Shown piece after piece: positions 2,993-27,397 of a stretch of DNA of 28,759 nucleotides. Position numbers and translations under genes: made by a program. A model generated the notes under the pieces. It saw nothing but the letters and a program-made list of their open reading frames with translations, was not told the DNA's origin and ran no database searches. Positions within the stretch are counted from its first letter, which is position 1. The number at the start of each line of letters is the position of its first letter. Origin of the DNA: a virus; IMG/VR virus record IMGVR_UViG_3300037963_001405, positions 666 through 29,424 of that record. One strand, 5' to 3'.

Positions 2993-5900
2993 ATGTCAGA
3001 AACTAGAGTACAGTTTAACACTATCGTATCTAATCAACTTCCTGCTTATGTAAGGGAGGATTATCCACTAATTTCTGAACTTTTAAAACAGTATTATCTT
3101 GGACAAGAATATCAAGGTGGTCCAGTTGATTTAATTCAAAATATCGATAGATACATTAAACTAGATAATACTACAAATTTATCTGAATCTGTTGTTCTAA
3201 ATGGTGATCTTGATTTTGATGCAACAACAATTAATGTAGATCCAGGAGACTCTCCAGCAGGAACTAGAGGATTTCCTGATTCATATGGTCTTTTAAAAAT
3301 TAATGATGAAGTAATAACTTATACTGGAAAAACTGATTTTTCTTTCACGGGATGTGTTAGAGGTTTTGTTGGGATAACTTCTTATAGAAGTGAATTAAAG
3401 AAAGAAGAAGTAGTTTTCAGTGAAAGTGACTCTGATGATCATCTTGATAAATCAACCATAACAAACTTAAGTTGTTTATTTTTAAAAGAGTTTTTAACAA
3501 AAGCAAAACATCAATTCTTACCTGGTTTAGAGGGAAGAAGTCTTGTCCCTGAACTAAATCAAAATTTATTCGTTAAACAATCAAAAGATTTTTATAGAAG
3601 TAAAGGAACTGATTTTTCTTTTGAAATTCTTTTCAGAGCACTATACAATGAAGATGTAAGAGTTGTAAAACCAAGAGATTTTCTAATCTCACCATCAAAC
3701 GCTCAATATAGAATTGTCAATAGTTTAGTAGTAGAACCTATTCAAGGTGATCCAGAAAATTTAGAGAATGCAACTTTATATCAAGATGAATATAAATTTG
3801 GTGGAATAAACAAAGCATATGCACCAATCACCAGTGTTGAAAAAATAGAAGTTGGTTACGGAAAAACTTTCTATAAACTCAGCATTGATGGTGGTTACAA
3901 TCGTGACGCTTCCGTGCAAGGAGCAGTATATGGAGCATTTGTCGTAGAACCATCTACAAGAGTAATAGGAAAGGTATCTTCAGGATCTACAGTTCTTGAT
4001 GTTGATTCAACAGTTGGTTTTGGATCAACTGGAGAACTGTATTTCCGTTATTCAGATAATAGTGTAGGTGTATCTTCATACACTTCTAAATCATTGACTC
4101 AGTTTTATGGTGTCACTGATATTGATGCTGAAATTGCAGATGCAACTATCGTTGGTGTTAATACATTTGCATATGGAAGATCAAAGTTAGATCAAGATGA
4201 AATTATTGAAGTAAGAGTTAGTTCTGTTTTAAATTCTTTCAACATTCCATCCAATACTAATAATCTCTTAAAAGGTGGAAAAGTTAATGTAACTAATCTT
4301 GGAATTTCTGAAAATAATTTCAAAACAAATAAATGGTTCTATAATGTCTCACCAATCTATAAAGTTAAGAACCTTGAAATAATAGATTCATCAAATAACA
4401 CATATAAAGTAACTTTAAACGTACCTAATCAATTTAGATCCGGTGATAATGCAGAAATTATTTTAAACAATGTAAAAAAAGAAACAAAAATTATATCTGT
4501 AAGTTCTGAGACTTCTTTTAATATAAGAGGTCAAGGTGCTTTAAATCTAGATGCGACATATACGATCCAAAGAAGAATTCAAAAAGTCTCTTCTGGAACT
4601 TATCCATCAGCACAAATATATTCTACTGATATTGATAATGTTTATAAGAACGAATCTGGAGATTATTTAATTTCTTCTCCATCAATACCACATTATGATT
4701 CACAGCCATTAAACCCTGCTTCTAGAGAGTTTAAATTTTCTGGTACTTTCCTTGGAGATGAGTTTGAGATTTCTCCTGGAGTAGAACATGGTTTTTATAC
4801 TGGAGATGCTATTTACTATCAGGCACAATTAATAAATCAAACATTTGTTAATGATAGTGGAAGTAGTGATACTAGACTGGTCAGAGATACTTCATTATTT
4901 GATGACGGACTTTATTTTGTAAAAAGAGTTAATAGTTCGACTGTTAAATTTGCAAAGAGTAGAGACGATATTTTTAGCTCTAAATTTATTTCTCTAGATA
5001 ATTCAACAACCGTTGCTAATAGTATTATAAGACCTTTTGAGTTTAATGGAAAAACACTAGAACCTCAAAAAGTTTTAAGAAAAATATCAGAACCTGTTAA
5101 TGATGGAACTTTAACTAAGACAGAACCAGGATTAACTGGAATATTTGTAAATGGTGTCGAACTTTTAAATTATAAAGGAAAGGATATTGTAAAATATGGA
5201 AAAATTGAAACAATAGACATTTTATCGCAAGGGACAAATATCGATGTAATAAATGCTCCTAACTTAATTATTTCTGACTCTGTTGGAACTGGTGCTACTG
5301 GATATGCTGCTGTCTCTGGTTCTCTTAGAGAAGTAAGAGTCATAGATCCTGGATTCGATTACTTAAACACACCAACCGTTAAACTTGAGGGTGGTAATGG
5401 TTCTGGTGCTGTTGCTCAAGTCAACATGAAACAAATTAATCATGAAGTTGATTTCTTTGCTGATTTGTCCTCTGCAGGAGTAACAACTGGTACTTCATCA
5501 TCTCAATCTACAATTGGATTTTCTACATATCATAAATTTAGAAATGCTGAGCAAGTAATTTATAAAACAAAAAATCAAGATGCAGTTGTTGGTATAGTTA
5601 CAGATTCTGTATATTTTGTGTCTACTGTCGATAATGTTACTGTGAGATTGCATCCCACTCAAGCAGATGCCATAGCAGGTATTAATACAGTATATTTAAC
5701 TGATCATGGTATCGGTAAACATTCCTTACAATCAGTCAATAAGAAATCCATAGTTAGTGCAATTAATATTGTCAGTGGTGGTTCTGGTTATGAAAATAAA
5801 AAGAGAACTGCACCTGTCACTGGTATTAACACTGCTTCTAATTTAATTACGATTGTAGATCATGATTATAAAACTGGAGAGAAATTAAAATATACTTGTA

Positions 5901-8900
5901 CGGGAACACCAATCTCAGGATTATCTGTAGATACTGAATATTTTGTAACTGCAATTGATAAAGACTCATTCCACCTCTCTCAAGTAGGAGTTTCATCTGA
6001 TAGAGAATTTTATACTAGAACAAAACAATATATTAACATGACTTCTGTGGGTGTAGGAACTCACGTCTTTAATTATCCAGATATTACTCTTACTTTATCT
6101 GGTAATGTCGGGATTTCCTCCATTGGAACAGAAACATTTAAAGGATCTTTCCAACCAATCGTAAGAGGAACAGTAACTTCTATACACTTAGAGAATGGTG
6201 GTGTTGGATATGGATCTTCTGAAGTTATAAACTTAGATAGACAACCAACTGTTGAACTTCAGTCAGGAACAGATTGTCAATTAACTCCAATTGTTGTTAA
6301 TGGTAGAATAGTTGAGGTTATTATTCAAAAGTCTGGCAGCAGATATGTATCCACACCAGATTTAGTTGTAGTAGGTGATGGAGTCGGTGCTGTATTAGTT
6401 CCAGTCTTAGAAAATGGATCAGTAACCGATGTCAAGATTGTTGAACCTGGTGCTGGATATTTAGATGATTTTGGTCTAACAACTATTGATGTTATACCAG
6501 CTGGATCAACAGAAATACTACCTGTATTCAAAGCAAATGTACAAAATTGGAGAGTAAATTTATTTGAAAAATATTTTACATATTTTTCACAAGATGATGG
6601 TATAATTACGACTGGTTTAAAGTCAGATGATTTTGGACTTCAGTATTCTCACTTATATGCACCAAGAAAACTTAGAGAAACTGTTTTTGCTACTGATCAA
6701 AATGGCAATACTTTATACGGTGAAAGAGATTTAAAAAAAGTTAATAGTATTGAAGTTCAATCCACAAGACACTCTCCTATTTTAGGATTTGCTTACGATG
6801 GACATCCAATATACGGTCCATATGCATTTTCAAAGATAAGTGGTGGTGCGATCACCCAAATGAGATCTGGATATTCTATTGATCTTAAAGATAATAGACC
6901 ACCCACCTCTATTTTCCCAGAAGGGTTTTTTGTAGAAGATTATACACACAATGAAGTTTCTGATGATAGTGTTCTTGATGAAAATAATGGAAGATTTTGT
7001 GTAACTCCAGAATTTCCAAAAGGAACATATGCATACTTCACTACAATTAATGATAAGTTTGCAGAGTCTTCTGGAATTTTTGAAAAGAACCGTAAACCAG
7101 TTTTTCCTTATGTGATTGGCAACAACTATAAGGGTGTTGTTGATAATTTTAATTTTAATCCACAATCAAATTATGATTCCTTTGTCATCTCTAATGATTG
7201 GCGTAGAAATACACAACCATTAAATGTAATTGAGGATGATTTAGAATATTCTTATTTCTATGTTCCAAATAAGTTAAATCAAACCGCAACTGTTACTGCA
7301 ACTGCACCTGGAATAATTGATAGTGTTGGTATTGTTACAGGTGGATCAGAATATAGAATTAATGAAACTCTTGAATTTAATAACGATGGAACTCAAGGTC
7401 AAGGTGTATCAGCAAAAGTAACTCGCATAAAAGGAAGATCTGTCAATAGCATAAGTGTTGCTTCAAGTATTATTGAAGGAGTTGAAATATATCCAGGTCA
7501 ATCAAAAGGAGAGTACTTAGTATTCTCTGATAATCCACATAATTTTGAACCCCTTAATACCATTTCAATTTCTGGATTATCCACAACATCATCTGGTATT
7601 GAGGGATCTTATAATGTTGGTATAAAAACAAATAGATTAACAATTGCTGGTGTAGGAACCACAGGTGTTGCTATTGGTAACACTGATGTAACTGGAATCG
7701 TTACTTATTTCAGAGTTTCTGGTGATTTAAATTATCCTAGCATTAGAGAAAATGATACTCTGATCATAGGTTCGGAAAAAGTTAAAGTTCTGAATGTTGA
7801 TCCTTTAAATTCTAGAATTAGAATTCTAAGAGCATTTGATAATACTGTTGGATCATCTCACACAATCGGAAAGTTTGTTTATGAAGTTCCTAGAAAATTA
7901 AGAATTAATTCTGGATTCAAAACTGATTATTCTTATTCTTTAAACAAACAAATTTATTTTGATCCTGCAGAATCCGTGGGATTAGGAACGACTGCTGGAG
8001 TTGGAATCGGAACAACAATTTCTTTCTCTAATCCAGGTGCTGGCGTAACCTCAGTTTTCATTCAAACTAAAGCAATTTATCTTCCAGGTCATAATTTAAA
8101 AACTGGAGATCAAGTAACATATTCTACAGGAATTGGAACGGTTAAAGGTTCTGGTATAATTGTACAAGATGAAACTAATGTTGGAGTTGGAACAACTCTT
8201 GCAGATGGCACAAATCTATTTGTTGCAAAGATCAATGATGATTTGATTGGTATTGCAACTGTAAGAGTTGGTCTTGGAACAACAGGAACATTTGTTGGTC
8301 TTGCAAATACACTTTCAACTACACTGTTCTTTAGAAATGTAGGAACTGGAGACACGCATAGTTTTAAAACAAACTATAGTGTAATCACTGGAGACATAAG
8401 AAGAAACTTAGTTACTGTTTCCACTGCAGGAACTCATGGTTTGAGTTCACCTCACAACATTTTTGTTAATGTTAATCCGCAGAACACAGGTATTGTAACT
8501 TTAACTTATAATGATTTTAACAGAAGATTGATTGTAAATCCTGTTGGGTTTGTAACTGCTGGAGTTAACACCACAACAAATGCTATAACGATCAATTCTC
8601 ATGGATTTAAAACTGGAGACAAAGTAATTCATACATCAGAGTTGTCTTCTGTGGGATTGTCGAGTGATAGATTTTATTACATTGTAAGAGTTGATAATAA
8701 CAGAATTAAATTATCAGATACTTACTTCGATGCAACTCAACCAAAACCAACCATCGTAGGAATAACTAGTGCTTCTTTAGGAACTATTAATCCAATAACT
8801 CCATCAATAAAACTGTATAAGAATTCTACAGTAACTTTTGATCTTTCGGATAGCTCATTATCTTATGTAAAACAAGGAACAACTTATCCTGCATTTAAAT

Positions 8901-11900
8901 TTAATTTATATGTTGATAAAAACTTTACCAAAGAATGGGAAAAATCTAAAGATAACAGCACATTTGAATTAACTAGACAAGGTACTGTTGGAACATCTGG
9001 TGCAAAAGCAGTATTAGATGTAAATGGAGATACTCCTAATGAACTTTATTATAACTTAGTTCCGATTTATGAGAGTGATCTTCCTACTGCAAAAGCAGAA
9101 ATAGTAACTGATAGTGAGATTATTTCTGGAAATACTATTACCCCTAAAGGTAGTCTTTATAATGGCACTCATACGATTACAGTAGGAACAACCACTACTT
9201 TTACGTATTCTATTGCAGAAGCACCAGAGAAATCTTCTTATGATACTTCTGCATTAATTACATACGATACTGATTGTACTCATACATATGGTCCTATAGC
9301 AAAAGTTGAACTTACCAATCAAGGAAGTAATTACTATTCACTGCCAGGTATATCAACAGTAGATACTCTTGCTGGCACCGGTGCTATTTTAGAGGCAAAG
9401 AGTTCAAGCATCGGTTCTCTCAAGAACATGACATTGGACAACATTGGATTTAATCTTCCATCAGATCCAACATTAAATCCTAGAATTCTTCTTCCTCAAA
9501 TTATCAAAATAGAATCCTTAGCATCATTTGATACTGTAGGAATTACATCTTTTGGAAGAGGATTTTCAGTTCCACCCAAACTTATTGTATTGGATGGAAA
9601 AACTGGCAAACAAGTTACTGATGTTGATCTAAAAGTCACCCTTGGAGAATCTAATGTAGAGATTCTAAAAAATACCAATGGCATGAGTAATGTTGAACCA
9701 ACAATCATACCAACAAATAGTGGTGCGGGTGTTGGGATCAATACGATTGTATTCAATACAGCAGATGAAACAGTGACAGCAACGTTATCTGTTGGATTTA
9801 GTACCATCAACTCCTTCCCATTTGCTGTAGGTGACAAAGTTCTCGTAGAGGGTATTAGTGTTGGTGTGGGATCAACTGGGTTAGGATACAACTCCTCTGG
9901 ATATGATTATAAGTTGTTTGATGTCACAGGGGTTACTGAAAACCTTGGTGGTATTGGAAGTGTTACTTATAGCATGGCTGGATTGTTTAAAAATGGAAGT
10001 TTCCCAGGAACCTTTAAATCATCCAGTTCTTCTGGAAAGATTCTTGCATCTAAACATTTCCCATTATTTGAATCGTTCTTAACCACAAGAAACTTTGCCG
10101 ATAATGAAGAAATCACATCAGATTCTGCAACTGGAATAGTTCAAAGTTGGGATCCAAAAATTACTACACTGACAGTTTCATCAGACGATAATTTTGTTGT
10201 TGGTGAAGTAATCAAAGGAACAGATTCTAAAGTTCAAGGAATAGCATCATCCATTACTTCTTTTGATTCTTATATCAACTTGGGAGCAACTTCAAAAGTT
10301 GTGCAGGGTTGGCAAGAAGATTTTGGTAGATTAAACTTTGAATTACAAAAACTTCAGGATAACTTCTACTATCAAAACTTCTCATATTCATTGAGATCTA
10401 AAGTTGCTTATGATGATTGGAATGATGAAGTTGGTTCTTTAAACCACATACTAGGGTACAAGAAGTTTTCAGATTATCAATTAGAATCTAATAATGACAA
10501 TGATATGACCGTTGGAATTCCAACCAACACTACAAATGTTAATGTTGTTAATAATATTGATGGTTTTGCAAGTCTAAATTGTGTTTATGGATTTGATCTT
10601 GCTACAGAAAATAGTCTGGTTCAGGATTCAAAACTTGTTTCTGATGAAATAGTATTTTCTAATAGAATTCTTACAGATTATTTTGAATCTGTTGGCAATA
10701 GAGTTCTTTCTATTGATGATATAAGTGACGAATTTAATAGTAATCCTAGAGCAACTCCCTTTAGCATAGTGGACACTTTTGACTTGAGTGATATTAGATT
10801 CCAGAAATATATCACATACGTTAGAGATAGAAGATTTAATGCACAAAGGCAATTAATGCTTGTCGATCTTCTCCATGATGGTTCTCGTGGATATTTGAAT
10901 CAATATGGTAGAGTTGAAACACAATATGATCAAGGTTCTTTTGACTTTGCTATTTCTGGAACTGATGCTCAACTCCAATTTTACCCAACTAAGTTTACAG
11001 TCAATGATTACAATCTTAGTGTCTTTTCATATAATTTGAATGATAATTTCCTTGGAGTTGGAACAACAAGTCTCGGTGGTGTTGCAACAATTGAAACAAA
11101 AAGTTCTCCAGTAACCTCTGGTGTCACAACCACTATTGTTTCAATCGGAGATACACATACTGGTGTTAAAGTTTTGGTTAACATAAATCCAGACTTGACT
11201 AGAAATGAAGAATTTGAAGCAGTTGAACTTAATATTGTTCATGATGGAACAAATATTGAGATGATGGAATATGGAAGAATGACAACAAATCTTGGTGGAT
11301 CTGCTGCAACTGGACTTGGCACATATCATGCATACTTCAGTGGATCTTCTTTGAATGTTGATTTCATTCCAACTTCTGTTGGTATTGCAACTACAGGGGT
11401 AATTAACACCGTTCAAGTAGGACTTTCCACAGATACTATTACGGGTATTGGGACCATTGATCTTACCAGAGCTAGACTTGAAGCCAGAACAACTAGTATT
11501 TCTTCTTCAGGATCTCCAGGAATCAACACAGTTGCTGAATATTCAGAAAATTATCATGCTGCTTACTTCATAGCTCAAGTTACGGATACAACCAATAACT
11601 CAACTCAACTTTCTGAACTTGTTATTGTTGATGATTATATTGATTCAACACAAAGTTATCAGACATATGATACTGAATATGGTGTCATAGAAACTGGTGC
11701 TGGATTAGGAACATTTGGATCTAGAGTTTCTGCTGCAGGAACTGTTTCTCTTGTCTTTACTCCAAGTGCAAGTATTGACACAGTAGTTAATGTGTACATG
11801 AATGCATTGTCCTTGAACGAGGACAATACATTATCTAATGAGATTGACTTCACTAACGGATCAATTAATAGTGATTTTGGAGCTTATGAAGGTACAGAAT

Positions 11901-14900
11901 CTGATGTTAAGAGAGCATTTGGAATGCAGCATGAAAATCTCCCAATCTTTGAGAGATACTTTGAAGGAAATGATGTTAGTATTGCTAATACGACAAATAA
12001 TACAATTACAATTCCAAACCACTTCTTTGTATCTGGTGAAAAATTAGAGTACATTCACGTTGGAGAAACTAGTTCTGCTATTGGTATCGCAACAACTAGT
12101 TTCGTTGGTGCTGCAGATACAACCTTCCTCCCAGGAGAAAATCTATTTGCTGTTAAAGTTGACGACAATGTTATTAAAATTGCAACAAGTGCTGCAAATG
12201 CACTGAAGTCAATTCCTGAGGTAGTTGAACTTGAAAGTGTTGGTATTGGTACATCACATAGATTTGTATCCACCAATCAAAATGCAAAAGTTGTTGTTGC
12301 ACTTGATAATATCATTCAATCTCCCGTAGTTTCTACTGCTCTGACTACCACACTTGCTGAACAATTATTAACCGTAGATAACCTGGTATATTTTAGTGGG
12401 ATAACATCTTTCTTCGGATCAGATCTTATTAAGATTGGTGATGAGATTATGAAGATTGAAGGTGTTGGTATTGGTAGCACAAATGCTATTAGAGTCCGTA
12501 GAGAATGGTTAGGAACAAAGATTGGAGTTGGTTCCACAGGTGATTTAGTAACCAAAGTTGTAGGAAACTATAATATTGTAGATAATATATTGAACTTTGT
12601 GGAAGCACCATTTGGAAATACTCCAATTGGATCAACTACAAATCCACCTGATGAAAGAGACTGGACTGGTATTACTTCTTCCTCTAGTTTCCAAGGAAGA
12701 TCTTTCATGAGATCTGGTATTACTGATACAGGAAATGAAACTTATTATAAGAACTATATTTTTGATGATATTTCTGCAGGATTTAATGCTACAGAAAATG
12801 AATTCACTCTGAAGCAAAGTGGATCTGATGTTCCTGGTATTTCAACAGAGGGTGCCATTATCTTAGTTAATGATATATTCCAATCACCAGGACTTACTGA
12901 CCAATACGTCTTGAGTGAACAATCTGGTATCACATCTATTACTTTCCAAGGAACCAATACAGTTCCACTCGGACCCGATGTTGGAATTTCTAGTTATCCT
13001 AAGGGTGGTATCATTATCTCAGTAGCATCAACAGAAGGTTTTGGTTATCAACCACTAGTTGCTGCTGGTGGAACTGCGATTGTATCTGGTTTAGGAACAA
13101 TTCAATCTATCAGTATTGGAAATAGTGGATCGGGATACAGATCTGGAATTCAAACAGTTGTAAATGTTGGTGTAGGAACTTCTAGTTTCAGCACTGGAAA
13201 TATTGAGTTTATTGGAACTGCTGCCATAAGTGGTGGTCATATTGTTAGTGTCGCAATCACTAATCCTGGATCTGGATATACGTCCACTAATCAACCTTTT
13301 GTAGTGTTTGATGATCCATTAAGTTACTCTAATATGGATCTGGTATATAGTTCTTCTTCTGCTACTGGATTCGGAACACACGCAACTGCAAATGTTGTTG
13401 TTGGTCAAGGATCTAGTGTTATTGACTTTGAGATTGTAAACTCTGGTTATGGATATGGTAATGGTCAGATCTTGACCGTTGCTATTGGAGGAACAACTGG
13501 TATTCCAACCACCTCTTCTTATTCTGGAAATGAGTTCCAACTGACAATTGATGAGGTTCATGTAGATGAGTTTACTGGATGGTCAGTTGGAACACTGGAT
13601 GTTTTGGACAGGGTTGATGAGTTTGTTGATGGTGTGAGAAAAGATTTCCCACTTACAAAAGCGGGCTCTATTGTTTCAATTGTTGCTGCTAAAGGATCTA
13701 AGATTAATGTTGAAGATGTTATCTTAGTATTCCTCAACAATACTCTTCAAGTACCTGGAGAAGGATATACATTTGATGGAGGAAGCACTGTTGTATTCAC
13801 GGAGGCTCCAAAGGTTGGTGACAACATAAACATTCTCTTCTATAAAGGAAGTGGTGATACTGATGTTATCTTTAGAAATATCATTGAAACTGTGAAGAAG
13901 GGTGATACTTTACAACTGAATAGTGATAGATCGGTCGGTCAACCAACATATTTTAATGAGGATGAAAGAGTTGTAGAACTCGTTAAATCTACCAATACTG
14001 TTGAAACCAATCCTTATGAGGGTCCAGGAAATACTTCAGATGTTAGCCTTGAAAGACCTGTTGACTGGTGTCGTCAAACAGAAGACATCTTTATTAATCA
14101 GATTGGTGTTGGTAAAGATAGAGAATTGTATGAACCTGTTATCAATCCAAGTGCATATCTTATTAAGTCTGTTGGAGTAGGATCTACCGCAATCTATGTT
14201 GATAATTTGAGACCCATCTTCAATTCTCAAAATGAAAATGATACAACTCTAGTTTTCCAAAAGAAAATTAAGTTCATAACACAAGAAACTAAAACAGGTG
14301 CTGCTGGCACTGCAGTTGTTTCTGGATTTGGTACAATCTCCTCTGTTGTTATTTCTGATGGTGGTGTTGGATATACGACTGCTACTGTAAGTTTTGGTTC
14401 AACTGTTGGTGTTGGAACAACTAGTAGAGCATTTGGTAATGTCACAATTAGTGCCGGAGGAACAGTCACGGGAGTTGCTATCACAAGTCCAGGTGTTGGA
14501 TATACATACACAAATCCACCTACGGTTCTCATCTCACCTCCAACTTATTCAGAAGAAGAAGTAAGTGTAAATTCTTATGCTGGTGATAGTGGAATTATTG
14601 TTGGATTTGGAACAACTGCAGTTGGTGTTGGAACTACTCAACTTGTATTTGATATTCACATTCCATATGATTCCTTCCTTAGAGATTCCTCCATTGCAGG
14701 AACGGCTTTAACTATAAGTTCTATCAGTGCTAATGATTACTTTATTATTAGAAACTCTAATGTTGGACTTGGATCTACTTCTGTGACTTCATTCGATAGT
14801 GCTGGAAATACTGTTGGAGTCGGAACCTCATTTGCGGATAATGTTTATCAAGTTTCTAGTGCAGAATCTATATCAACTAGTGTTTCTGGAATATCTACAT

Positions 14901-16731: not shown

Positions 16732-19700
16732 ATGCCACAACAGACTAATCTCAACGTAGCACCATATTTTGACGATTTTGATGCAACGAACGACTATCAT
16801 AAGGTATTATTCAAGCCAGGATTTCCAGTTCAGGCTAGAGAGTTAACAACTCTCCAATCGATACTGCAGAATCAGATTGAAAGATTTGGACAACACTTTT
16901 TTAAAGAAGGTGCTAAAGTAATTCCAGGAAATACTGGATATAGTCAAATATATTATTGTGTTCAATTAGAAAATGTATATCAGGGTGTTCCTGTAGCAGC
17001 ATATGTTGACCAGTTAATAGGAACAAAGATAACAGGACAAAATTCGGGAGTAACTGCGTTTGTAGATAGTGTTTTATTACCAGAGGATTCTGAGAGGGGT
17101 AATTTAACATTATACATTAACTATCTGACTTCTAGCACTAATAATAACTCTACTCAGATTTTTAGTGATGGTGAACCAATTATTTGTAATGAAGCTCTGT
17201 CTTCGGGATTACTTGGAAATACAACTATTGCTGCAGGAACTCCTCTTGCTGTAACATTAGAAACAGCAGCAGCTGCTACTGGTTCTGTATTCCAAATTGA
17301 TAGTGGTGTTTATTTTATCAGAGGAAACTTTGTAAATGTAAACAAGGAAAGTCTTGTATTAGATCAATATACTACAACTCCAAGTTATAGAATCGGTCTC
17401 TTAATCGATGAAAGTATTGTTACTTCAGATATTGATGAAGAGTTAAACGACAATTCTCAGGGATTTAACAATTATGCTGCGCCTGGGGCAGATAGATTAA
17501 GAATTAGTGTAAGATTATTTAAAAAAGCACTTGATGATTTTAATGATGATAACTTTATTTTACTTGCTACCGTTATTAACGGTGTTCTTCAGATAAACAA
17601 GAGAAAGACCGTTGTTGGTGGTGGTGTTGGATTTCAGGATTTAACAGATGTCCTTGCCAGAAGAACATTTGATGAATCCGGTCACTATTATGTTAAACCA
17701 TTTGATGTTACTGTTGTAAACTCTTTAAATGACAGAGTTGGTAACGGTGGAATTTTTAACACAGGACAGTTCTCCCCTGGTGGAGTAACTGTTTCTGATG
17801 ATCTTGCTTTATATAAAATCTCCCCTGGAAAAGCATATGTAAAAGGATATGAAATTGAATCATTAAATGCAGTCTATCTGGATGTAGACAAACCAAGAAC
17901 AACTAGAACACTTGAAGATCAGAACTTAATTTATAATACTGGTCCTACTTTAAAACTTAATAGGGTTTACAGAAATCCAACCGTTGGATTAGGAAATACT
18001 TATTTTGTAAGTCTTAGAGATCAAAGAGTAGGATCTAGCCAAGAAGCTGCACCTGGTAATGAAGTTGGTGTTGCTAGAGTTTATGATTTTAGATTGGAGT
18101 CTGGCTCATATAACACATCAGATGGAAATTTGAATGAGTGGAATCTTGCACTTTATGATGTTCAAACTAATGTAGATCTCTCAATAAACCAAGCTCACAC
18201 TTTATCGACCCCAACCTTTGTAAAAGGTGCTAATAGTGGAGCAACAGGATTCTTAAGATATGCAGTTAGTGCTGGGACTGCTCTTACAGTATATGAATCC
18301 GAAGGATCTTTCATACCAAATGAGAGACTAATCTTCAATGGTATTGATGATGGAAGGATTGCCATTGCCATCACTGAACACAATATTTCAGACGCAAAGT
18401 CAGTTTATGGAATGGTTGGATATGATGGATCTGATTCATCAGTTGGTATCAACACATTCAGTGCAGATGTAATCCAATCAACTAAGTTTACCGTTGGAAT
18501 TGCAACAGTAAGTCCTCTCGTTGGAGGAGTTAGTACTGTAAAAAGCAATAATCCAGCATTCCCAGGAACTTTAATAAAAGAAAATGATTTAATTGAATAC
18601 ACTGATAATACTACGGGTGGGCTTCTTACAGAGGATCCAATCGTAGCTAGAGTTGTTAGTGTTGGAACCACGCATATTGATATTGAAGGTGTAACTGCTG
18701 TTGCAGGAATTTCTAGTGGTCTTCTCCCCTCTGCAGCATTAAATGTAACTGACTTTAAGGTTATTACAACACAACTGGCATCTTCTTCAGACGATTCTTT
18801 ATTCACTAAATTACCAAAGATAAATGTATCTGATGTAAGTCTTGATGATGCATCATTAACGATAAGAAAAACTTTTGATGTAACTATTGCAAGTAATGAA
18901 CTCTCTACTCAAGTAGTTGCAGGAACAAATGAAACTTTCTTACCATTCGACGAAGAAAGATATCTTTTAATCAGAGATGATGGAACAACTGAATCTTTGA
19001 ATGGTGATCAGTTGGATATTTCTCCAAATGGCAAAACACTACAGATTCGTGATTTAGGATCTAATAGTGATGCTACTTTGATTGCTTCTCTGAAAAAGGT
19101 CAAACCAAAAGCAAAACAAAAGATTAAAAATAGAGTTAGTTCAATAACTATTGCCAACTCTAAACTAGTTGGATCTGGAATCGGAACAACAACTCTAAAT
19201 AACGGATTGACTTATGGATCTTTCCCATTTGGAACTAGAGTTGAAGATGAGGTTATTTCTCTAAATGTTCCTGATGTTATTGAAATTCATGGAATCTTTG
19301 AGTCTGCAGACACTTCTGCGGCATCTTGCCCACAAGTTACGTTGCAGTCAATTAATAGCACATCAACTACAACTCAAGAACTTTTGATAGGTGAGAGACT
19401 TATTGGTCAAACAAGTGGTGCTGTTGCAGTTGTAGCAGAGAAATTAGATAATTCTAATATTTCTTTCATCTATAAGAATGAAATTGCTTTTGTTGAAGGA
19501 GAAACTGTTGAGTTTGAGGAATCTGCAATATCTGCACTTATTTCATCATTAGTAACACCAAGTTTTAATGTCTCGTCAAACTATTCTTTCCAGACTGGTC
19601 AAGAGAGAACATTCTATGACTATGGAAAAATAAGAAGAAAAGCAGATGCTTCTGCACCTACTAAGCAATTGAAGATTTACTTCAAGAACGCTTCTTTCTC

Positions 19701-22700
19701 TTCAACAGATGATGGTGATATAACAACTGTTAACTCCTACGATCAGTTTAATTTTACAACAGAAATTAAAGATATAGATCTTAACAGAAATACTGATATC
19801 ATTGATATTAGACCTAGAGTTTCTTCGTTTGTCACTGCCAGTACTAATACTAGATCTCCTTTAGAGTTCCTTGGTAGAACATTTACCGCATCCGGTCAAT
19901 CAGCAACTACAGTACTATCTTCTGATGAGGCAATATTAGCAGATATTTCTTACTTCCAAGGTAGAGTTGATAGAGTTTACTTAACAAAAGAAGGTCAATT
20001 CCAGATAATGTATGGAACTCCTTCTGATAATCCTGATAGACCTGATCCAATTGATGATGCGATTGAAATTTGTAGGGTTAATCTCCCACCATTCCTTTAT
20101 GATACATCTCAAGCATCTTTATCTTTTATGCAACATAAGAGATATCAGATGCAAGATATCAAAAAACTTGAAGATAGAATCAAGAGTCTTGAATATTATA
20201 CTACTTTATCTCTCCTCGAAAAAGAAACAGCAAACTTCTTTGTTCCAGATGACAATGGTCTAAACAGATTTAAATCTGGTTTCTTTGTTGATAACTTCAA
20301 TGATTTCCAGGCACAAGAACTTAACCTTCGTGTTAATAACTCTATTGATAGAAAGTTTAATGAACTGAGACCAAGACACTATACAAACTCAGTTGACTTG
20401 GTATTTGGACCTGTTGTTGATACAGACCCTACTGATGATTTAGATTTTACAGATATTGAAGGCAATAACGTAAGAAAGCAAAATGATATTGTAACTCTTG
20501 ATTATTCAGAAGTTGAATTTATCAAACAAAACTTTGCCACAAGAACTGAAAGTGTTACTCCTTTCCTTATTAGTTTCTGGAATGGAACTATAGAACTTAC
20601 TCCAGCATCTGACAACTGGGTAGACACAACTAGACTTGAAGCAAAAATTATTGAAGCTGAGGGTAATTATAACGAAGTATTCAGAGATCACGTTGAAGCT
20701 GGTACGATTGATCCTCAAACTGGATTTGGTCCTATGATTTGGGACTCTTGGGAAACAAACTGGACTGGTGTTGAAGTTGTTGATGAAACAAGAACCAGAG
20801 TTATTAATAATGGTCCTGATGTTATTCACCAAGGTGAGTCCTGGAGACCAGGAAGAAGTACATCAACTAGACAAGTTACTGATCGGGTCATTGAAGAGCA
20901 ACTCAGAACAACCAGAGAGTTTGGAACACGTTCTAGGTCTGGTGTTAGAACTATCGTTACTGAATCGTTTGATCAGGAGTCTGTTGGAGACAGAGTTGTC
21001 AGCAGAGACCTTATTCCATACATGAGATCTAGAAACGTTGAATTCGTTTCTAAGAAGATGAAACCACTTACGAGAATGTATGGATTCTTTGATGGTGTTG
21101 ACATTACGGAATACTGTGTTCCTAAACTTCTGGAAATCACCATGACATCTGGAACTTTCCAGGTTGGTGAAACTGTTGTTGGTGAAATGACAACGACCGG
21201 TTTGAGTGAAACTTCTGCAGAATCGAATGCAAACATCAGATTTAGAGTTGCTCAATCAAACCATAGAGAAGGTCCTTACGATGCTCCTACTAAAACTTAT
21301 GTAGAAAACCCATATTTAAATCTTCCATTATCCGCATCTTACTCCTCTACTTCTACTATTCTTAATGTAGATACATTCTCTCTTGCATCTCAAGCAAGAG
21401 GTGACTTCTATGGTTGGGTAAAAGAAGGAATGACATTGGTTGGGTCAACAAGTGGTGCTATTGCTACCGTTGAAAATGTCAGATTGATTTCTGATCTTGC
21501 TGCTGTTCTTATTGGTAGTTACTATATTCCAGATCCTAACAATATTACTTTCCCAAGATTTGAATGTGGGACAAAGACTTTCACTCTTACTAATGATATT
21601 GACAACAACCAGGATAATGCAAGCACCATCGCAGAAGAAGCATTTAGTGCATCTGGTACTTTAGAAACTGTTCAAGAGAACATCATTTCTGTTAGAAATG
21701 CAAGAGTTGAACTGAAGAACGAGTTCCAGAGTAGAAACGTCAGTAGAGATCTTGGCACAGAGGTTCTTAATAGTAGAGTCATTGGTTCAAGAACAAGAAC
21801 TCAGACAATTATTTCTTACTATGATCCACTTGCACAGTCGTTCTTAGTGGAAGATGAAACTGGAGTATTCTTGACCAGTTGTGATGTCTTCTTTAGATCT
21901 AAAGACGACATGGATATTCCTGTTGTCTTCCAGTTAAGAACCATGGAAAATGGTTCACCGACTGCAAGAATTCTGCCTTTCTCTGAGATTGTTTTAGATC
22001 CAGATGATATTCAAACATCAGCTGACGGATCGATTGCGACTAATATTCAGTTTAAAGCACCTGTATATGTTGAGGGTGGCACTGAATATGCCGTATGTTT
22101 AGCATCTAACTCCACTAAGTATAGTGTTTACATCTCTAGAATTGGTGAGAATGATCTTCTGACAGATACATTTATCTCTAACCAACCATATCTTGGATCT
22201 CTGTTTAAATCACAGAATGCTTCTACATGGGAACCAAGTCAGTGGGAAGATCTTAAGTTTACTCTTTATAGAGCAGATTTCATTGATAATGGATCTGTTG
22301 AGTTCTATAGTCCAGAACTCACAAGAGGAAATGCACAGATTGCAAAACTTACCCCCGATCCCATTGTTCTTCAGTCTAGATCAATTAGAGTTGGTCTTGG
22401 CACTACAGTAGCAGATTCATATGAGTTTGGTAATACATTCTTCCAAGCAACAACGAATGCAACTGGTGACCTTGTAGGGGTTGCAGGATCCGCTGTAGGA
22501 AATCTTTCAATCAGTAATGCTGGTTTGGGATACACTCCTGCTGATGGTGGTCAAACATTCACTGGTGTTAATCTCGTCACCATAACTGGTAATGGAAGAG
22601 GAGCAACCGCAGACATTACTGTTAGAAATGGCAGCATTGTTGCTTCTGGTGCAACCATTAATAATGCTGGTGGTTCTGGATATCAAGTAGGAGATGTTGT

Positions 22701-24282
22701 TGGAATTGATACGATTGGAGCAGCATCTGTTGGTAGAAATGCAGCACTTACAATTGCAGGTATTGGACATACTAATGAACTTATTCTGAACAATGTTCAA
22801 GGTGAGTTTGTTGTTGGAGCAGCAAAAACACTGTTCTTCTTCAATAGTTCTGGTATCTCTACTGAACTTAATTCGTCTGGTGCTGCAGGACTTGGAACAG
22901 GTGGAGACGTTCAAATCACAAATATTGAAACTGATTCTGATGGGTTGCACTTTAAAGTCAATCATCAAAATCATGGAATGTATTTCTCTGACAACTCTGT
23001 AAGTATATCTGGTGTTCATCCTGATATAAAACCAACTAAGTTGACTGCAGAATATTCATCCACATCCACAGATCAGATTGTAGTTGGTGGTGCAACAACA
23101 TTCTCAACTTTTGAAGGTGTTGGAGTTGGAACAACTAACGTTGGTTATCTCTTGATTGGTGATGAGATTATTGAATATACTAATGTTTCTGGAAACAGCA
23201 TTGGTGGTGATATTGTAAGAGGAACTAATCCGAAGACATATCCTGTTGGAACTCCTGTATATAAGTATGAACTTGGTGGAATTAACCTTCAGAGAATTAA
23301 CAGAACTCATGACTTAAGTGATGTCACTAAACTTGATCCGTTTACATTTGATAGTTATCAAGTTAAGATTGACACTAGCTCAACAACAGGAACCGACAGA
23401 AGCACTGACGTTGGATTCCCTAAACTTTATATAACAGGTGATAGATCTACCGGAGGATCTAGAGTTAGAGCCACTCAAAATATGCCTTTTGAAATCATTA
23501 CTCCACAAGTTCAAAATGTAACTGTTCCTGGAACTAGTATTACAGGTGAACTTAGAACAATCACTTCTCAGAGTTTTAGTGGAACTGAAATACCTTTCGT
23601 TGATGCTGGATTCCAAGACATCACTATAAATCAAAAGAATTATTTTGATACTCCAAGAATGATTGCTTCTAAGGTAAATGAAGATGCACAACTTACTAAT
23701 ATTGTTGGTGGTAAATCAATGCAGATGAGACTTTTCCTCTCATCTACAGATACTCGCATAAGTCCTGTTATTGATGCTCAAAGAGTAAATGCGATCCTTA
23801 CTTCTAATAGAGTAAACAATATTATTACAAACTATGCGACTGACCCTAGAGTAAATAATCCTGTTGAGGATCCAACAGCATTCCAATATCTTTCTAAAGA
23901 AATTGTTCTGGAAAACCCAGCATCCTCTATTAAAGTTATTGTTGCTGCTCATATTAATGAAGGATCTGATATTAGAGCATTCTTTGCAACTAATAACAAC
24001 CCAGGATTAGTTCCTGTGTTTACTCCTTTCCCTGGATATGCAAACCTTAATGAAAGAGGAGAAGTTATTGCATCTGAAAACAATAATGGTGAATCTGATT
24101 CCTTTATAACTAAATCAAATACTCTTGCATTTGATAGTAGAAAACTTGACTACAAAGAATATACATTTACTATTGACAGATTACCATCATTCAGAACATA
24201 TAGAATTAAACTGGCTCTGACATCTACAAGTCAGTGCTTTGTACCAAGAGTGAAAGAACTTAGAGTTATTGCCTTAGCATAA
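16732..24282 (+). CDS. Giant DUF4815 virion structural protein (gp9-gp12 position)
   Basis: The N-terminus (NLNVAPYFDDFDATNDYHKV, then FPVQARELTTLQSILQNQIE) is characteristic of DUF4815 phage structural proteins; the domain seems to run to about residue 570 (FDESGHYYVKPFDV and KISPGKAYVKGYEIESL lie inside it). Further on are a short helical/coiled stretch at about 1134-1165 (RYQMQDIKKLEDRIKSLEYY), a beta-sandwich-like region at about 1696-1850 starting YYDPLAQSFLVEDETG, two GxGY repeats at 1931-1934 and 1981-1984, and an IGDEI-type module at 2137-2179. The last 300 residues are beta-rich and end in VKELRVIALA. T4 has gp9, gp10, gp11 and gp12 in this part of the order, so a peripheral baseplate or fibre-connector role is likely, but this is inferred from position. 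The gene starts 6 bases after gp8 without a strong ribosome binding site. Confidence 0.88.
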   Translation: MPQQTNLNVAPYFDDFDATNDYHKVLFKPGFPVQARELTTLQSILQNQIERFGQHFFKEGAKVIPGNTGYSQIYYCVQLENVYQGVPVAAYVDQLIGTKITGQNSGVTAFVDSVLLPEDSERGNLTLYINYLTSSTNNNSTQIFSDGEPIICNEALSSGLLGNTTIAAGTPLAVTLETAAAATGSVFQIDSGVYFIRGNFVNVNKESLVLDQYTTTPSYRIGLLIDESIVTSDIDEELNDNSQGFNNYAAPGADRLRISVRLFKKALDDFNDDNFILLATVINGVLQINKRKTVVGGGVGFQDLTDVLARRTFDESGHYYVKPFDVTVVNSLNDRVGNGGIFNTGQFSPGGVTVSDDLALYKISPGKAYVKGYEIESLNAVYLDVDKPRTTRTLEDQNLIYNTGPTLKLNRVYRNPTVGLGNTYFVSLRDQRVGSSQEAAPGNEVGVARVYDFRLESGSYNTSDGNLNEWNLALYDVQTNVDLSINQAHTLSTPTFVKGANSGATGFLRYAVSAGTALTVYESEGSFIPNERLIFNGIDDGRIAIAITEHNISDAKSVYGMVGYDGSDSSVGINTFSADVIQSTKFTVGIATVSPLVGGVSTVKSNNPAFPGTLIKENDLIEYTDNTTGGLLTEDPIVARVVSVGTTHIDIEGVTAVAGISSGLLPSAALNVTDFKVITTQLASSSDDSLFTKLPKINVSDVSLDDASLTIRKTFDVTIASNELSTQVVAGTNETFLPFDEERYLLIRDDGTTESLNGDQLDISPNGKTLQIRDLGSNSDATLIASLKKVKPKAKQKIKNRVSSITIANSKLVGSGIGTTTLNNGLTYGSFPFGTRVEDEVISLNVPDVIEIHGIFESADTSAASCPQVTLQSINSTSTTTQELLIGERLIGQTSGAVAVVAEKLDNSNISFIYKNEIAFVEGETVEFEESAISALISSLVTPSFNVSSNYSFQTGQERTFYDYGKIRRKADASAPTKQLKIYFKNASFSSTDDGDITTVNSYDQFNFTTEIKDIDLNRNTDIIDIRPRVSSFVTASTNTRSPLEFLGRTFTASGQSATTVLSSDEAILADISYFQGRVDRVYLTKEGQFQIMYGTPSDNPDRPDPIDDAIEICRVNLPPFLYDTSQASLSFMQHKRYQMQDIKKLEDRIKSLEYYTTLSLLEKETANFFVPDDNGLNRFKSGFFVDNFNDFQAQELNLRVNNSIDRKFNELRPRHYTNSVDLVFGPVVDTDPTDDLDFTDIEGNNVRKQNDIVTLDYSEVEFIKQNFATRTESVTPFLISFWNGTIELTPASDNWVDTTRLEAKIIEAEGNYNEVFRDHVEAGTIDPQTGFGPMIWDSWETNWTGVEVVDETRTRVINNGPDVIHQGESWRPGRSTSTRQVTDRVIEEQLRTTREFGTRSRSGVRTIVTESFDQESVGDRVVSRDLIPYMRSRNVEFVSKKMKPLTRMYGFFDGVDITEYCVPKLLEITMTSGTFQVGETVVGEMTTTGLSETSAESNANIRFRVAQSNHREGPYDAPTKTYVENPYLNLPLSASYSSTSTILNVDTFSLASQARGDFYGWVKEGMTLVGSTSGAIATVENVRLISDLAAVLIGSYYIPDPNNITFPRFECGTKTFTLTNDIDNNQDNASTIAEEAFSASGTLETVQENIISVRNARVELKNEFQSRNVSRDLGTEVLNSRVIGSRTRTQTIISYYDPLAQSFLVEDETGVFLTSCDVFFRSKDDMDIPVVFQLRTMENGSPTARILPFSEIVLDPDDIQTSADGSIATNIQFKAPVYVEGGTEYAVCLASNSTKYSVYISRIGENDLLTDTFISNQPYLGSLFKSQNASTWEPSQWEDLKFTLYRADFIDNGSVEFYSPELTRGNAQIAKLTPDPIVLQSRSIRVGLGTTVADSYEFGNTFFQATTNATGDLVGVAGSAVGNLSISNAGLGYTPADGGQTFTGVNLVTITGNGRGATADITVRNGSIVASGATINNAGGSGYQVGDVVGIDTIGAASVGRNAALTIAGIGHTNELILNNVQGEFVVGAAKTLFFFNSSGISTELNSSGAAGLGTGGDVQITNIETDSDGLHFKVNHQNHGMYFSDNSVSISGVHPDIKPTKLTAEYSSTSTDQIVVGGATTFSTFEGVGVGTTNVGYLLIGDEIIEYTNVSGNSIGGDIVRGTNPKTYPVGTPVYKYELGGINLQRINRTHDLSDVTKLDPFTFDSYQVKIDTSSTTGTDRSTDVGFPKLYITGDRSTGGSRVRATQNMPFEIITPQVQNVTVPGTSITGELRTITSQSFSGTEIPFVDAGFQDITINQKNYFDTPRMIASKVNEDAQLTNIVGGKSMQMRLFLSSTDTRISPVIDAQRVNAILTSNRVNNIITNYATDPRVNNPVEDPTAFQYLSKEIVLENPASSIKVIVAAHINEGSDIRAFFATNNNPGLVPVFTPFPGYANLNERGEVIASENNNGESDSFITKSNTLAFDSRKLDYKEYTFTIDRLPSFRTYRIKLALTSTSQCFVPRVKELRVIALA

Positions 24283-24283
24283 T

Positions 24284-25068: not shown

Positions 25069-25071
25069 ATA
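25064..25071 (+). promoter_or_regulatory. Weak candidate late promoter for gp13-gp14
   Basis: CCTAAATA matches 6 of 8 positions of the late octamer and overlaps the stop codon of the preceding gene, 24 bases before the gp13 ATG. It is weaker than the other candidates. Confidence 0.3.
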
Positions 25072-25095
25072 CAGGTAGGGAAACTTGTGGAATAA

Positions 25096-25944
25096 ATGGC
25101 ACAACCAGCAAGTAGGACAGATTTAATTAATTATTGCAAAAGGCAACTGGGAGCACCAGTGCTTGAGATTAATGTTGCCGACGAGCAAATAGATGATCTG
25201 GTTGATGATGCCTTACAATATTTTCAAGAGAGACACTTTGATGGTGTAACTCAAACGTTTTTAAAATATAAAATAACTCAAGAAGATATTGATAGAGGAA
25301 GAGCAAGAGGTGGCACTGATAATGCTGCTGGTATCACAACCACGACTGCATCTTCGACTATTGATGGATCTTCTGTAGACTTTTCGTTTGAAGAGAATAG
25401 TAATTATCTTCAAGTGCCACCAGAGATTATTGGAATAACTAAAGTATTTAAATTTGATGGAACAAACACTGTAACTAATAACATGTTCAGTGTTAAATAT
25501 CAATTATTTTTGAACGATATTTACTATTGGGGATCGACAGAAATATTGACTTATGCAATGACCAAGACTTATCTTGAAGATCTTGATTTTGCACTAAGCA
25601 CTGATAAATTTATTAGATTTAATCAAAGACAAGATAGATTATACTTAGATTTTGATTGGGGATCTGCTGCTAAAGATGATTTTCTTATTATTGATTGTTA
25701 TCGTTTAGTAGACCCAAATTCATATTCAAGAGTTTGGAATGATTCCTTCTTGAAGAGATATGTAACCGCACTTGTTAAAAGACAGTGGGGTCAAAACTTG
25801 ATGAAGTTTCAAGGAGTTAAATTACCTGGTGGAATTGAATTAAACGGTCGTCAGATTTACGACGATGCTCAAAGAGATTTGGAAGTGATCAGGGAGCAAA
25901 TGTCTAACACTTACGAACTTCCTCCATACGATATGATAGGTTGA
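25096..25944 (+). CDS. gp13: gp13-like neck (head completion) protein
   Basis: The 282-residue product shows the gp13 N-terminus: DLINYCKRQLGAPVLEINVA, then DEQIDDLVDDALQYFQERHF, closely resembling T4 gp13 (309 aa). Later blocks also fit: VPPEIIGITKVFKF, LFLNDIYYWGSTEILTYAM, RLYLDFDW, and a C-terminal FLKRYVTALVKRQWGQNLMK helix. gp13 binds with gp14 at the portal after packaging to close the head and form the tail-docking neck. The short Thr/Ser/Ala stretch at about residues 74-98 (TDNAAGITTTTASSTIDGSS) looks like a flexible loop. gp14 starts 4 bases after its stop, consistent with coupled expression of the two partners. Confidence 0.95.
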   Translation: MAQPASRTDLINYCKRQLGAPVLEINVADEQIDDLVDDALQYFQERHFDGVTQTFLKYKITQEDIDRGRARGGTDNAAGITTTTASSTIDGSSVDFSFEENSNYLQVPPEIIGITKVFKFDGTNTVTNNMFSVKYQLFLNDIYYWGSTEILTYAMTKTYLEDLDFALSTDKFIRFNQRQDRLYLDFDWGSAAKDDFLIIDCYRLVDPNSYSRVWNDSFLKRYVTALVKRQWGQNLMKFQGVKLPGGIELNGRQIYDDAQRDLEVIREQMSNTYELPPYDMIG

Positions 25945-25948
25945 TGTC

Positions 25949-27397
25949 ATGTTAAATCCATTCTTTACTCAGGGAACTCGGGGTGAGCAAAATCTTGTTC
26001 AGGATTTAATTAATGAACAATTAAGAATGTATGGAGTAGATATTTTTTATCTACCTAGAAAATATTTAACAGAAAATACTATTATAAGAGAGGTTGTGCA
26101 ATCAAAATTTGATATGGCACTTCCTTTAGAAGCTTATATTGATAACTACGATCAATATTCTGGTGCTGGTGATATTCTTTCTAAATTTGGAATTGAATCT
26201 AAAGACGAAGTAAGACTTATCATATCAAGAGATAGATTTGAAAATTATATTACTCCTTTGATTGAAGATCAAGCAAATGTAAAACTTTCAACCAGACCAA
26301 AAGGTGGGGATTTAATTTGGTTTCCACTTGATGACAGAATTTATGAAATCAAAGATATTGAATATGCAAAACCATATTATCAGTTACAGAATCTCTATGT
26401 TTATGAGTTGTATTGCGAACTCTTCCGTTTGGAAGACGAAGTTATTGCAACTGGTATAGATGAGATTGATAATAACCTCATTGGTGAAGAATATGATGGA
26501 CTTACTGATGATGGAATCAATACTATTCAAGGTCCTACACAGACACTTACTTTAGTTGGATCTCCTGTTCAAGCAACTGCAACTGTCGCTATATTTGATG
26601 GTGGTGTTACACAATTTACAGTAACAAACAGAGGTGGTGGATATAGTAGTGTACCAACTGTAGTCATCTCTGCTGCTCCTTCAGGAGGGACTACAGCAGT
26701 CGGTATTGCCACTATGATTGGTGGTATCAATGTATGTAATTTAAATGCCAATCCAAGGGATCAATCTGTTCAGAGGGTTGATGTAGCAAATTCTGGTGCT
26801 GGATATACTGCAGTGCCAGGTGTTAGATTTACTGGTGGTGGAGATGGTGGAACAGGTGCAGCTGCAACCGCAACGATTGGTGATGGTGTTGTTGGAATAG
26901 TTACTATTACAAACGGTGGATCTGGATACACAGTTCCTCCTACAATTACATTCTCTAATGAAGTGTTTGAATCTGGTGTCACAACAGTGTCTGCTGCTGC
27001 AACAGCAGTTGTAAGTGCTGCTGGAACAATTTCAAATATCTTCTTAACGAATTCTGGTGTTGGATACTCTGTTGCTCCTACCATGTCTATCGCAGCATCT
27101 GGAAGCTCTGGATCTGGAACGTTCCAATTTAATGAAGTTGTAACAGGCTCTTCTAGTAAAACAACTGCAAGGGTTAGAACTTGGAACTCTGAAACAAATG
27201 TTCTTGAAGTAGGAACAGTAAGTGGAGAATTCACCCGTGGTGAAACAATTACAGGAGCTACTTCTGGTGCAGCATATGAACTGAGAGTAGCAGACGTACA
27301 ACCTGCAGATGATGGATTTGCTGATAATATTAATATAGAAACAGAAGCAGATGCTATTATTGACTTCTCTGAGCAAAATCCATTCGGTATGCCATAA
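25949..27397 (+). CDS. gp14: gp14-like neck (head completion) protein with internal repeat insertion
   Basis: Residues 1-170 match gp14: FFTQGTRGEQNLVQDLINEQ, RMYGVDIFYLPRKYL, DMALPLEAYIDNYDQYSGAG, IISRDRFENYI, and a GDLIWFPLDDRIYEIKDIEY block. The last 35 residues, ending AIIDFSEQNPFGMP, also fit the gp14 C-terminus. T4 gp14 has 256 residues; this one has 482, because about residues 199-447 form an insertion with four GxGY repeats (GY at 231-232, 285-286, 326-327, 372-373) followed by a TTARVRTWNSETNVLEVGTV-type beta segment. gp14 works with gp13 and the portal to seal the head. The insertion probably decorates the neck surface; its function is unknown. Confidence 0.93.
   Translation: MLNPFFTQGTRGEQNLVQDLINEQLRMYGVDIFYLPRKYLTENTIIREVVQSKFDMALPLEAYIDNYDQYSGAGDILSKFGIESKDEVRLIISRDRFENYITPLIEDQANVKLSTRPKGGDLIWFPLDDRIYEIKDIEYAKPYYQLQNLYVYELYCELFRLEDEVIATGIDEIDNNLIGEEYDGLTDDGINTIQGPTQTLTLVGSPVQATATVAIFDGGVTQFTVTNRGGGYSSVPTVVISAAPSGGTTAVGIATMIGGINVCNLNANPRDQSVQRVDVANSGAGYTAVPGVRFTGGGDGGTGAAATATIGDGVVGIVTITNGGSGYTVPPTITFSNEVFESGVTTVSAAATAVVSAAGTISNIFLTNSGVGYSVAPTMSIAASGSSGSGTFQFNEVVTGSSSKTTARVRTWNSETNVLEVGTVSGEFTRGETITGATSGAAYELRVADVQPADDGFADNINIETEADAIIDFSEQNPFGMP

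Follow-up and report, generated by a model that had tools for sequence, protein, structure and literature searches.

A GxGY repeat common to neck and baseplate proteins of a marine cyanomyophage

How does one short beta motif come to stand in proteins from opposite ends of a phage tail, and what might it do there? The question is raised by a stretch of 28,759 nucleotides (the window), positions 666 to 29,424 of the 29,424-base virus record IMGVR_UViG_3300037963_001405, from a T4-like cyanomyophage, that is, a marine virus of cyanobacteria; the nearest named DNA is that of phages Bellamy and S-SM2. An earlier note on the window had described a pattern around the tetrapeptide GxGY in four virion proteins: the neck protein gp14, the baseplate wedge protein gp8, a DUF4815/VrlC protein (hereafter DUF4815) of 2516 amino acids (aa), and a 4048-aa protein whose homologue is named baseplate wedge initiator in Bellamy and S-SM2, and gp7 in S-SM2. 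The reading that I favour, at a probability of about 0.58, is that the four proteins share an accessory immunoglobulin (Ig)-like domain made of paired repeats, an old surface add-on that would serve weak auxiliary adhesion.

The repeat and the relatedness of its copies

The repeat is about 45 aa long and in its fullest form reads VxxVxIxNxGxGYxxxPxVxI. GxGY by itself is common in these glycine-rich proteins, a shuffled 4048-aa protein containing 1.7 on average. The half-pattern VxxVxIxxxGxGY, with relaxed hydrophobic positions, occurs 8 times in the 4048-aa protein, 4 times in gp14 and once each in gp8 and DUF4815, against means of 0.030, 0.004, 0.003 and 0.013 and a maximum of 1 in 1000 shuffles of each protein; the excess in gp8 and in DUF4815 thus comes from one copy each. 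Since the P-x-V-x-I half, even at relaxed spacing, is present in just 6 copies (4 of 4 in gp14 and 2 in the 4048-aa protein), the consensus first proposed is essentially the gp14 form.

A general profile, seeded with the window copies and iterated over loci, and therefore acquainted with the window copies by construction, identified 16 copies at a threshold of 8 bits (8 in the 4048-aa protein, 4 in gp14, 2 in gp8 and 2 in DUF4815), with a single match of that strength among 100 shuffles of each of nine proteins; an extra copy in the 4048-aa protein lies below threshold at 5.6 bits. All four copies claimed for gp14 were recovered by half-pattern and profile alike (31.4-44.0 bits). The figure of at least 13 given for the 4048-aa protein is reached when five degenerate forms (GFDY 786, GSRY 1115, GSEY 1448, GSNY 2111 and GRGF 2188) are added to the 8 firm copies, and the two copies reported in gp8 and the two in DUF4815 are seen by the profile, although the half-pattern finds one in each and the first gp8 copy is degenerate, its turn reading GVGL. 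The span originally claimed, 5345-27065, fits GFDY (residue 786) through the last gp14 copy. The general profile passes over GxGY at gp8 residues 162 and 364, which were rejected as copies, and also over the 4048-aa protein's GxGY at 2296, 3349 and 3589. In gp6, gp13, gp15, gp25 and the 132-aa protein no copy was found with the pattern, the general profile or a profile made from gp14 only.

The gp14-only profile (34 nonredundant windows from 83 gp14 sequences; 200 shuffles per target protein) scored 10 sites of the 4048-aa protein above 0 bits; shuffles of that protein reached at most 4.4, which 8 of the sites exceed. It also found two sites in gp8 (12.8 and 11.7 bits, both above the maximum of 7.1) and one in DUF4815 (5.6 bits, maximum 2.9). 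V, I or L stands at positions -9, -6 and -4 in 12, 10 and 13 of 16 GxGY-anchored windows outside gp14 (binomial p 1e-5, 7e-4 and 1e-6). Nine repeat regions and 16 decoy regions, each aligned from fetched loci, were compared using hhalign, after removal of rows whose open reading frames (ORFs) belonged to a different protein or had no assignment (for the gp14 cassette, 20 rows of 4048-aa type, 6 of DUF4815 and 6 unassigned). Without masking, 34 of the 36 pairs of repeat regions exceeded the best of 144 decoy comparisons (8.7) and 23 reached 50, two pairs (2.3 and 5.9) falling under the best decoy; the best of 36 reversed controls was 4.4. The gp14 cassette gave 91.9 with gp8, 85.3 with DUF4815 and 97.5 with residues 3755-3870 of the 4048-aa protein, and gp8 gave 95.1 with DUF4815 and 96.1 with 4048-aa residues 1040-1185. 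PHROG profiles also cross-match, the 4048-aa protein to head closure Hc2 (phrog_460, 8.6e-16) and gp8 (phrog_438, 2.2e-7), and in the reverse directions too. The proposal of one related module in baseplate and neck proteins is supported.

When GxGY was masked, gp14 still gave 95.8 with residues 3755-3870 and 85.7 with residues 3335-3510 of the 4048-aa protein, which cleanly excludes, for these two proteins, a likeness limited to GxGY, the finding that according to the earlier note would have undone its claim. Judged by these alignments, gp14 and the 4048-aa protein share more than the tetrapeptide, and the preceding strand appears to be shared in general; for the gp8 and DUF4815 copies, it is the unmasked comparisons that argue for relatedness, most of their links falling upon masking.

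Pairing of the repeats and a solved homologue

Runs were defined as copies no more than 62 aa apart, leaving out near-duplicates and runs at truncated ORF ends. At 3 bits, 470 nonredundant runs comprised 249 of one copy, 177 of two, 24 of three, 16 of four, 3 of five and 1 of six; at 8 bits, the 385 runs comprised 241, 117, 12 and 14 of one to four copies and 1 that was longer. This distribution points to a two-repeat pair as the natural unit, and suggests that a single copy is either genuine or what is left of a pair whose other half is worn, as in gp8.

An alignment of such pairs (A3, 109 rows, the first from window gp14) yielded an AlphaFold2 model of seven strands with a mean predicted local distance difference test score (pLDDT) of 81, and its profile has matches at E<=0.01 to 13 places of the record from which the window comes. 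Searched against PDB sequences, the A3 profile found residues 445-506 of the Dpo31 tailspike (28lx/28mg/8ck1) of the marine podovirus Carin-1, a Cobetia phage, at E 6e-7. In the accessible part of the Dpo31 report (PMC13317679), residues 434-536 are described as an additional protruding domain, D3*, of Ig-like fold and distantly similar to sugar-binding Ig-like domains (DALI Z 2.8-2.9); its authors tentatively place the depolymerase activity in D3, at its interface with D3* or close by, and that part mentions neither the repeat nor its spread. Both GxGY of the matched region (457 and 501) fall inside D3*, and the window copies, with two GxGY repeats matching the pair profile, belong to one Dpo31-D3*/GxGY pair family with it. 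In hhalign, D3* gave 96.2 with the gp8 repeats, 89.2 and 81.5 with two clusters of the 4048-aa protein and 77.6 with gp14, nine decoys remaining at or below 1.0. An unannotated domain of several marine cyanophage structural proteins is now tied to a solved reference structure. The two are alike in that a pair of GxGY stands in an inserted, protruding domain, about 100 aa long, of a marine-phage virion protein. D3* differs in being a single domain on a podovirus tailspike, next to an enzyme, whereas the window copies stand in neck and wedge proteins.

Each GxGY repeat would then supply half of an accessory virion domain some 85-100 aa long, two repeats forming one beta-sandwich, most probably Ig-like. 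By pairing, gp14 would hold two of these domains, gp8 and DUF4815 one each and the 4048-aa wedge protein about four or five. In BFVD the pair model has 29 matches at E<=0.001, including the S-RIM32 neck protein and the Bellamy wedge initiator; between E 0.002 and 0.01 stand a protein named tail sheath (Sinorhizobium phage phiM9), a P22 gp10-like protein and two Sylvanvirus proteins. Pfam gave no Ig-like family up to E 10 for the four cassettes, NCBIfam gave none up to E 1 for gp14, gp8 and the 4048-aa protein, and in neither library did the cassettes match a family of any kind. Among PDB sequences the single gp14 cassette had no match up to E 10, Dpo31 being reached with the deep pair profile only. 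No title or abstract opening naming the module was met in the literature on GxGY, cyanomyophage neck and baseplate structures and phage Ig-like domains, a search whose scope took in few subscription journals. The promiscuous Ig-like domains of tailed phages discussed by Fraser et al. in 2006 are reportedly accessory beta-sandwiches on many virion proteins, variable between close relatives. The GxGY domain resembles them in being a putative accessory beta-sandwich of variable presence on many kinds of virion protein, but differs in its two-repeat make-up, in having no Ig-like Pfam match and in its spread within a single phage family, where it occurs in baseplate wedge, hub, neck and fibres.

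Variation, selection and the role of the domain

Among 15 whole records, matches at E<=0.001 number 1 in pf16, 2 in Melnitz and 8-28 in eleven others, and are absent from T4 and KVP40. As they occur also in gp5 hub proteins (S-PM2, S-8S55) and tail fibres (P-HM1, Bellamy, S-8S55), the module is, by profile match, not confined to the four window proteins. Presence or absence in orthologues, a comparison suggested at the outset, turned out variable in gp14; of 213 gp8 sequences, unique and complete, 201 have a copy of 8 bits or more. These gp8 and gp14 counts describe best-hit samples around chosen queries rather than frequencies, truncated or identical gp14 sequences being left out. Copies of at least 8 bits in 238 unique complete gp14 sequences numbered 0 (56 sequences), 1 (2), 2 (15), 3 (62), 4 (97), 5 (4), 7 (1) and 8 (1), and 55 of the 238, 213-345 aa long, have none even at 4 bits: in a core head-closure protein the number of repeats ranges from 0 to 8. 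In an earlier set of 130, gp14 length rose by 44 aa per copy (r 0.73); the longest member of that set (locus L184, 3552-6107) has 852 aa and 8 GxGY copies.

On a 21-row tree of the gp14 core, which has several long branches, presence and absence of the cassette need 3 changes, the starred branches forcing at least 2. The gp14 of Syn19 (306 aa) has no copy, and its sister in S-MbCM6 (486 aa) has 1 at 8 bits and 3 at 4 bits; their identity is 68% ahead of, and 67% beyond, a clean-cut difference of 10 versus 186 residues, which falls inside a second shared module. This natural plus/minus pair for the gp14 cassette, together with the solved homologue, makes a direct functional test possible. The ratio of nonsynonymous to synonymous substitution (dN/dS; simple pairwise count, up to 400 pairs) is 0.040 for the gp14 core, 0.153 for the cassette, 0.175 for the second module and 0.063 for the tail (61 sequences, at least 75% identity), and in gp8 it is 0.139 for the cassette against 0.098 and 0.123 elsewhere (58 sequences). 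The cassette is therefore freer than the core yet clearly constrained, under purifying selection, a pattern expected neither of a fast-evolving receptor site nor of a neutral insert.

The cores of both proteins are homologous to those of T4. Window gp14 scores 90.5 bits against PF11649 and gp8 67.7 bits against the T4 gp8 family PF09215 (cut-off 25 for each), and T4 gp14 chains 9mkb/9lu4 match window gp14 residues 2-156 at E about 1e-20. T4 differs in having no cassettes, its gp14 having 256 aa versus 482 and its gp8 334 versus 517. The gp14 cassette (about 200-392) comes after the T4-type core and before a conserved tail. In gp8, residues 3-190 match T4 gp8 10-211 and the final 32 align with its C-terminal end (the C-terminus also weakly matches that of wedge chain 9f4a, i-Evalue 5.9); since both ends align, the cassette by this alignment sits in a long insert between T4-like ends. 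The cassettes are presumably exposed on the virion, and the domain would be an ancient insertion in surface loops or tails of several structural proteins of T4 type, inherited in place ever since.

The domain would most likely act as a weak auxiliary adhesin for polysaccharide, cell-surface or extracellular, and not in DNA gating or tail contraction, because of the position of the cassettes, their dispensability in gp14, a homologue beside a polysaccharide-degrading domain and a precedent in lactococcal phages. In the 936 phages, according to the accessible part of the source (PMC6669499), carbohydrate-binding modules stand on the neck passage structure, the major tail protein and Dit, and binding was measured for two of them; the likeness lies in modules at both neck and tail of one virion, the difference in other folds and hosts and in host binding by those modules, whereas adhesion by the window's is predicted.

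The main rival to adhesion, possible although I hold it unlikely, is that the domains are structural spacers or staples that fill or bridge gaps between virion proteins (gp14-gp15, the baseplate wedge) and bind nothing outside. Purifying selection on the cassette (dN/dS 0.15 in gp14, 0.14 in gp8) and the rarity of gp8 without it would suit such a role, as would the neighbourhood of the gp14 cassette: in the available part of a T4 structural account (PMC12270204), the core of gp14 is a beta-barrel that reaches residue 177, and the C-terminal region 178-256, the counterpart of the region that the cassette adjoins, contacts gp15 in the virion. However, with gp14 copy number ranging from 0 to 8 and a sister pair differing by the whole cassette, no neck contact can depend generally on it, and its rate of evolution is about four times that of the gp14 core. 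More doubtful than the spacer is an extension of adhesion in which the GxGY domains make up one adhesive coat, from neck gp14 through the wedges (gp7-type, gp8, VrlC) to the hub protein gp5 and the fibres, all of it binding the same class of cell-surface glycan; the 0-8 gp14 copies would set its strength, and cyanophages would grip the host by avidity along the tail rather than by fibres alone.

A selfish or neutral cassette, copied between genes by recombination and tolerated, would explain the many copies in many genes, the variable copy number in gp14 and the close relationship of two 4048-aa segments (hhalign 99.6). It is nevertheless improbable. Three genomes (window, Bellamy and S-SM2) supplied 48 copies of at least 8 bits, those without an ortholog in another genome being dropped, and the nearest neighbour was of the same protein and the same position in 80 of 80 testable cases. 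Copies thus cluster by both, which answers the question posed in the earlier note and indicates that the sharing among proteins is old. Similarity of non-orthologous copies within minus between genomes was 0.13 +/- 0.33 (standard error of the mean; 117 position pairs), and across proteins -0.03 +/- 0.39 (82 pairs). Ongoing gene-internal recombination, the alternative to a shared surface in that note, finds no within-genome excess here, and a strictly neutral cassette does not fit a dN/dS of about 0.15.

Several results weigh against an adhesive Ig-like pair. A strict pair rule does not account for the 249 single and 24 triple runs among 470. D3* gave hhalign values of only 11.9 with 4048-aa residues 3335-3510 and 49 with DUF4815, and a single-repeat profile scored the first D3* repeat at 5.2 bits, under the shuffle maximum of 7.1, the second reaching 13.4. 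Foldseek of the pair model against the PDB gave nothing significant (best E 3.5 among 10 rows); 8ck1 is absent from these rows, its presence in the library and the resolution of D3* being unchecked. VIA-align to Ig constant domains gave at most Z 3.7 (a T-cell receptor chain, root-mean-square deviation 3.7 over 75 residues), which may reflect just a common beta arrangement. A full-length AlphaFold2 model of gp14 (30 rows, mostly close orthologues; pLDDT 39) was left unused. Since the pair's own model matches Ig domains so weakly, the fold of the window copies, probably Ig-like, is taken from the homologue D3*. No conserved site suggesting a glycan pocket was recognised, the only conserved aromatic across the repeat being the Y of GxGY. 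Masking lowers gp14-gp8 to 12.3 and gp8 to 5.9 and 12.6 with 4048-aa residues 3335-3510 and 3755-3870; gp8 keeps 84.7 with residues 1040-1185, but there the degenerate turns GVGL and GSRY escape the mask, as do GFDY, GSNY and GRGF in values involving 755-815 or 2095-2215. Masked DUF4815 links range from 0.4 to 26 (0.6 to gp14, 13.7 to gp8, 26.4 to 1040-1185), save 73.9 to the GFDY segment, which the mask leaves untouched. On masked proteins, the gp14-only profile keeps, outside gp14, the unmasked turns (7.4 bits at GFDY, 11.7 at gp8 GVGL) plus 2.0 bits at 3361 and 0.4 at another 4048-aa site, and nothing in DUF4815. These failures, and a P-x-V-x-I half in only 6 copies, are what repeated independent origin of a beta-hairpin with a glycine-tyrosine turn would predict, but such convergence is the least credible reading, given the masked gp14-4048 values against reversed controls of at most 4.4 and decoys of at most 8.7, the hydrophobic strand positions conserved outside gp14, and the spacing and pairing of the repeats.

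Second module, gene order and coordinates

A second module, FxxGExVxGxTSGxxAxVxxWxxxTxxLxV, is common to the same four proteins (Table 1). That of gp8 is linked to gp14 and the 4048-aa protein only, giving just 0.5-1.7 with the DUF4815 segments; residues 300-400 of the 4048-aa protein, tried as a further copy, failed in the hhalign comparison.

Table 1. Positions of repeat copies, second module and gp14 in the window (bits from the general profile unless another is named)
Feature	Position	Strand	Residues	Remarks
4048-aa degenerate copy GFDY	5309..5416	+	773-808	gp14-only profile 7.4 bits, shuffle maximum 4.4; no general-profile match >=4 bits
4048-aa copy	5726..5815	+	912-941	22.5 bits
4048-aa copy	6152..6238	+	1054-1082	27.4 bits
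4048-aa copy	6389..6460	+	1133-1156	14.3 bits
4048-aa weak copy GSEY	7283..7372	+	1431-1460	5.6 bits only
4048-aa second module	10070..10282	+	2360-2430	hhalign 97.6 to gp14, 91.8 to DUF4815 870-950
4048-aa copy	13064..13165	+	3358-3391	25.0 bits
4048-aa copy	13208..13306	+	3406-3438	35.9 bits
4048-aa copy	13382..13489	+	3464-3499	29.3 bits
4048-aa copy	14300..14404	+	3770-3804	25.6 bits; inside own-record gp14 tblastn match, E 4.2e-5
4048-aa copy	14429..14533	+	3813-3847	28.9 bits; same tblastn match (E 4.2e-5)
gp8 copy 1, degenerate	15790..15864	+	207-231	12.2 bits; gp14-only profile 12.8, shuffle maximum 7.1
gp8 copy 2	15895..16002	+	242-277	47.4 bits
gp8 second module	16204..16446	+	345-425	hhalign 90.8 to gp14, 86.0 to 4048-aa
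DUF4815 second module, further segment	18169-18411
DUF4815 second module	19339..19581	+	870-950	hhalign 96.0 to gp14
DUF4815 second module, further segment	21334-21531
DUF4815/VrlC copy 1	22459..22566	+	1910-1945	22.9 bits
DUF4815/VrlC copy 2	22609..22713	+	1960-1994	13.0 bits
gp14 neck protein (head closure)	25949..27397	+		T4-type core residues 2-177; PF11649 1.5e-25
gp14 copy 1	26573..26671	+	209-241	36.1 bits
gp14 copy 2	26735..26839	+	263-297	31.4 bits
gp14 copy 3	26855..26959	+	303-337	44.0 bits; pair with copy 4 modelled, mean pLDDT 81
gp14 copy 4	26993..27094	+	349-382	40.6 bits
gp14 second module	27110..27304	+	388-452	hhalign 90.8-97.6 to gp8, 4048-aa 2360-2430 and four DUF4815 segments; 81.5 to a fifth

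The genes lie on the + strand in the order gp25, gp6, 4048-aa protein, gp8, DUF4815/VrlC protein, 132-aa protein, gp13, gp14 and gp15. The 4048-aa protein also carries a YHYH domain (PF14240, 3e-21; window 6755-7060), shortly after a GxGY cluster. In phage MA10 a homing endonuclease gene stands between gp13 and gp14 (L090, 9564-10217), and in S-PM2 (L422, 7929-19001) gene p218 is annotated across 16 same-strand tRNA genes, an unusual overlap or a doubtful annotation.

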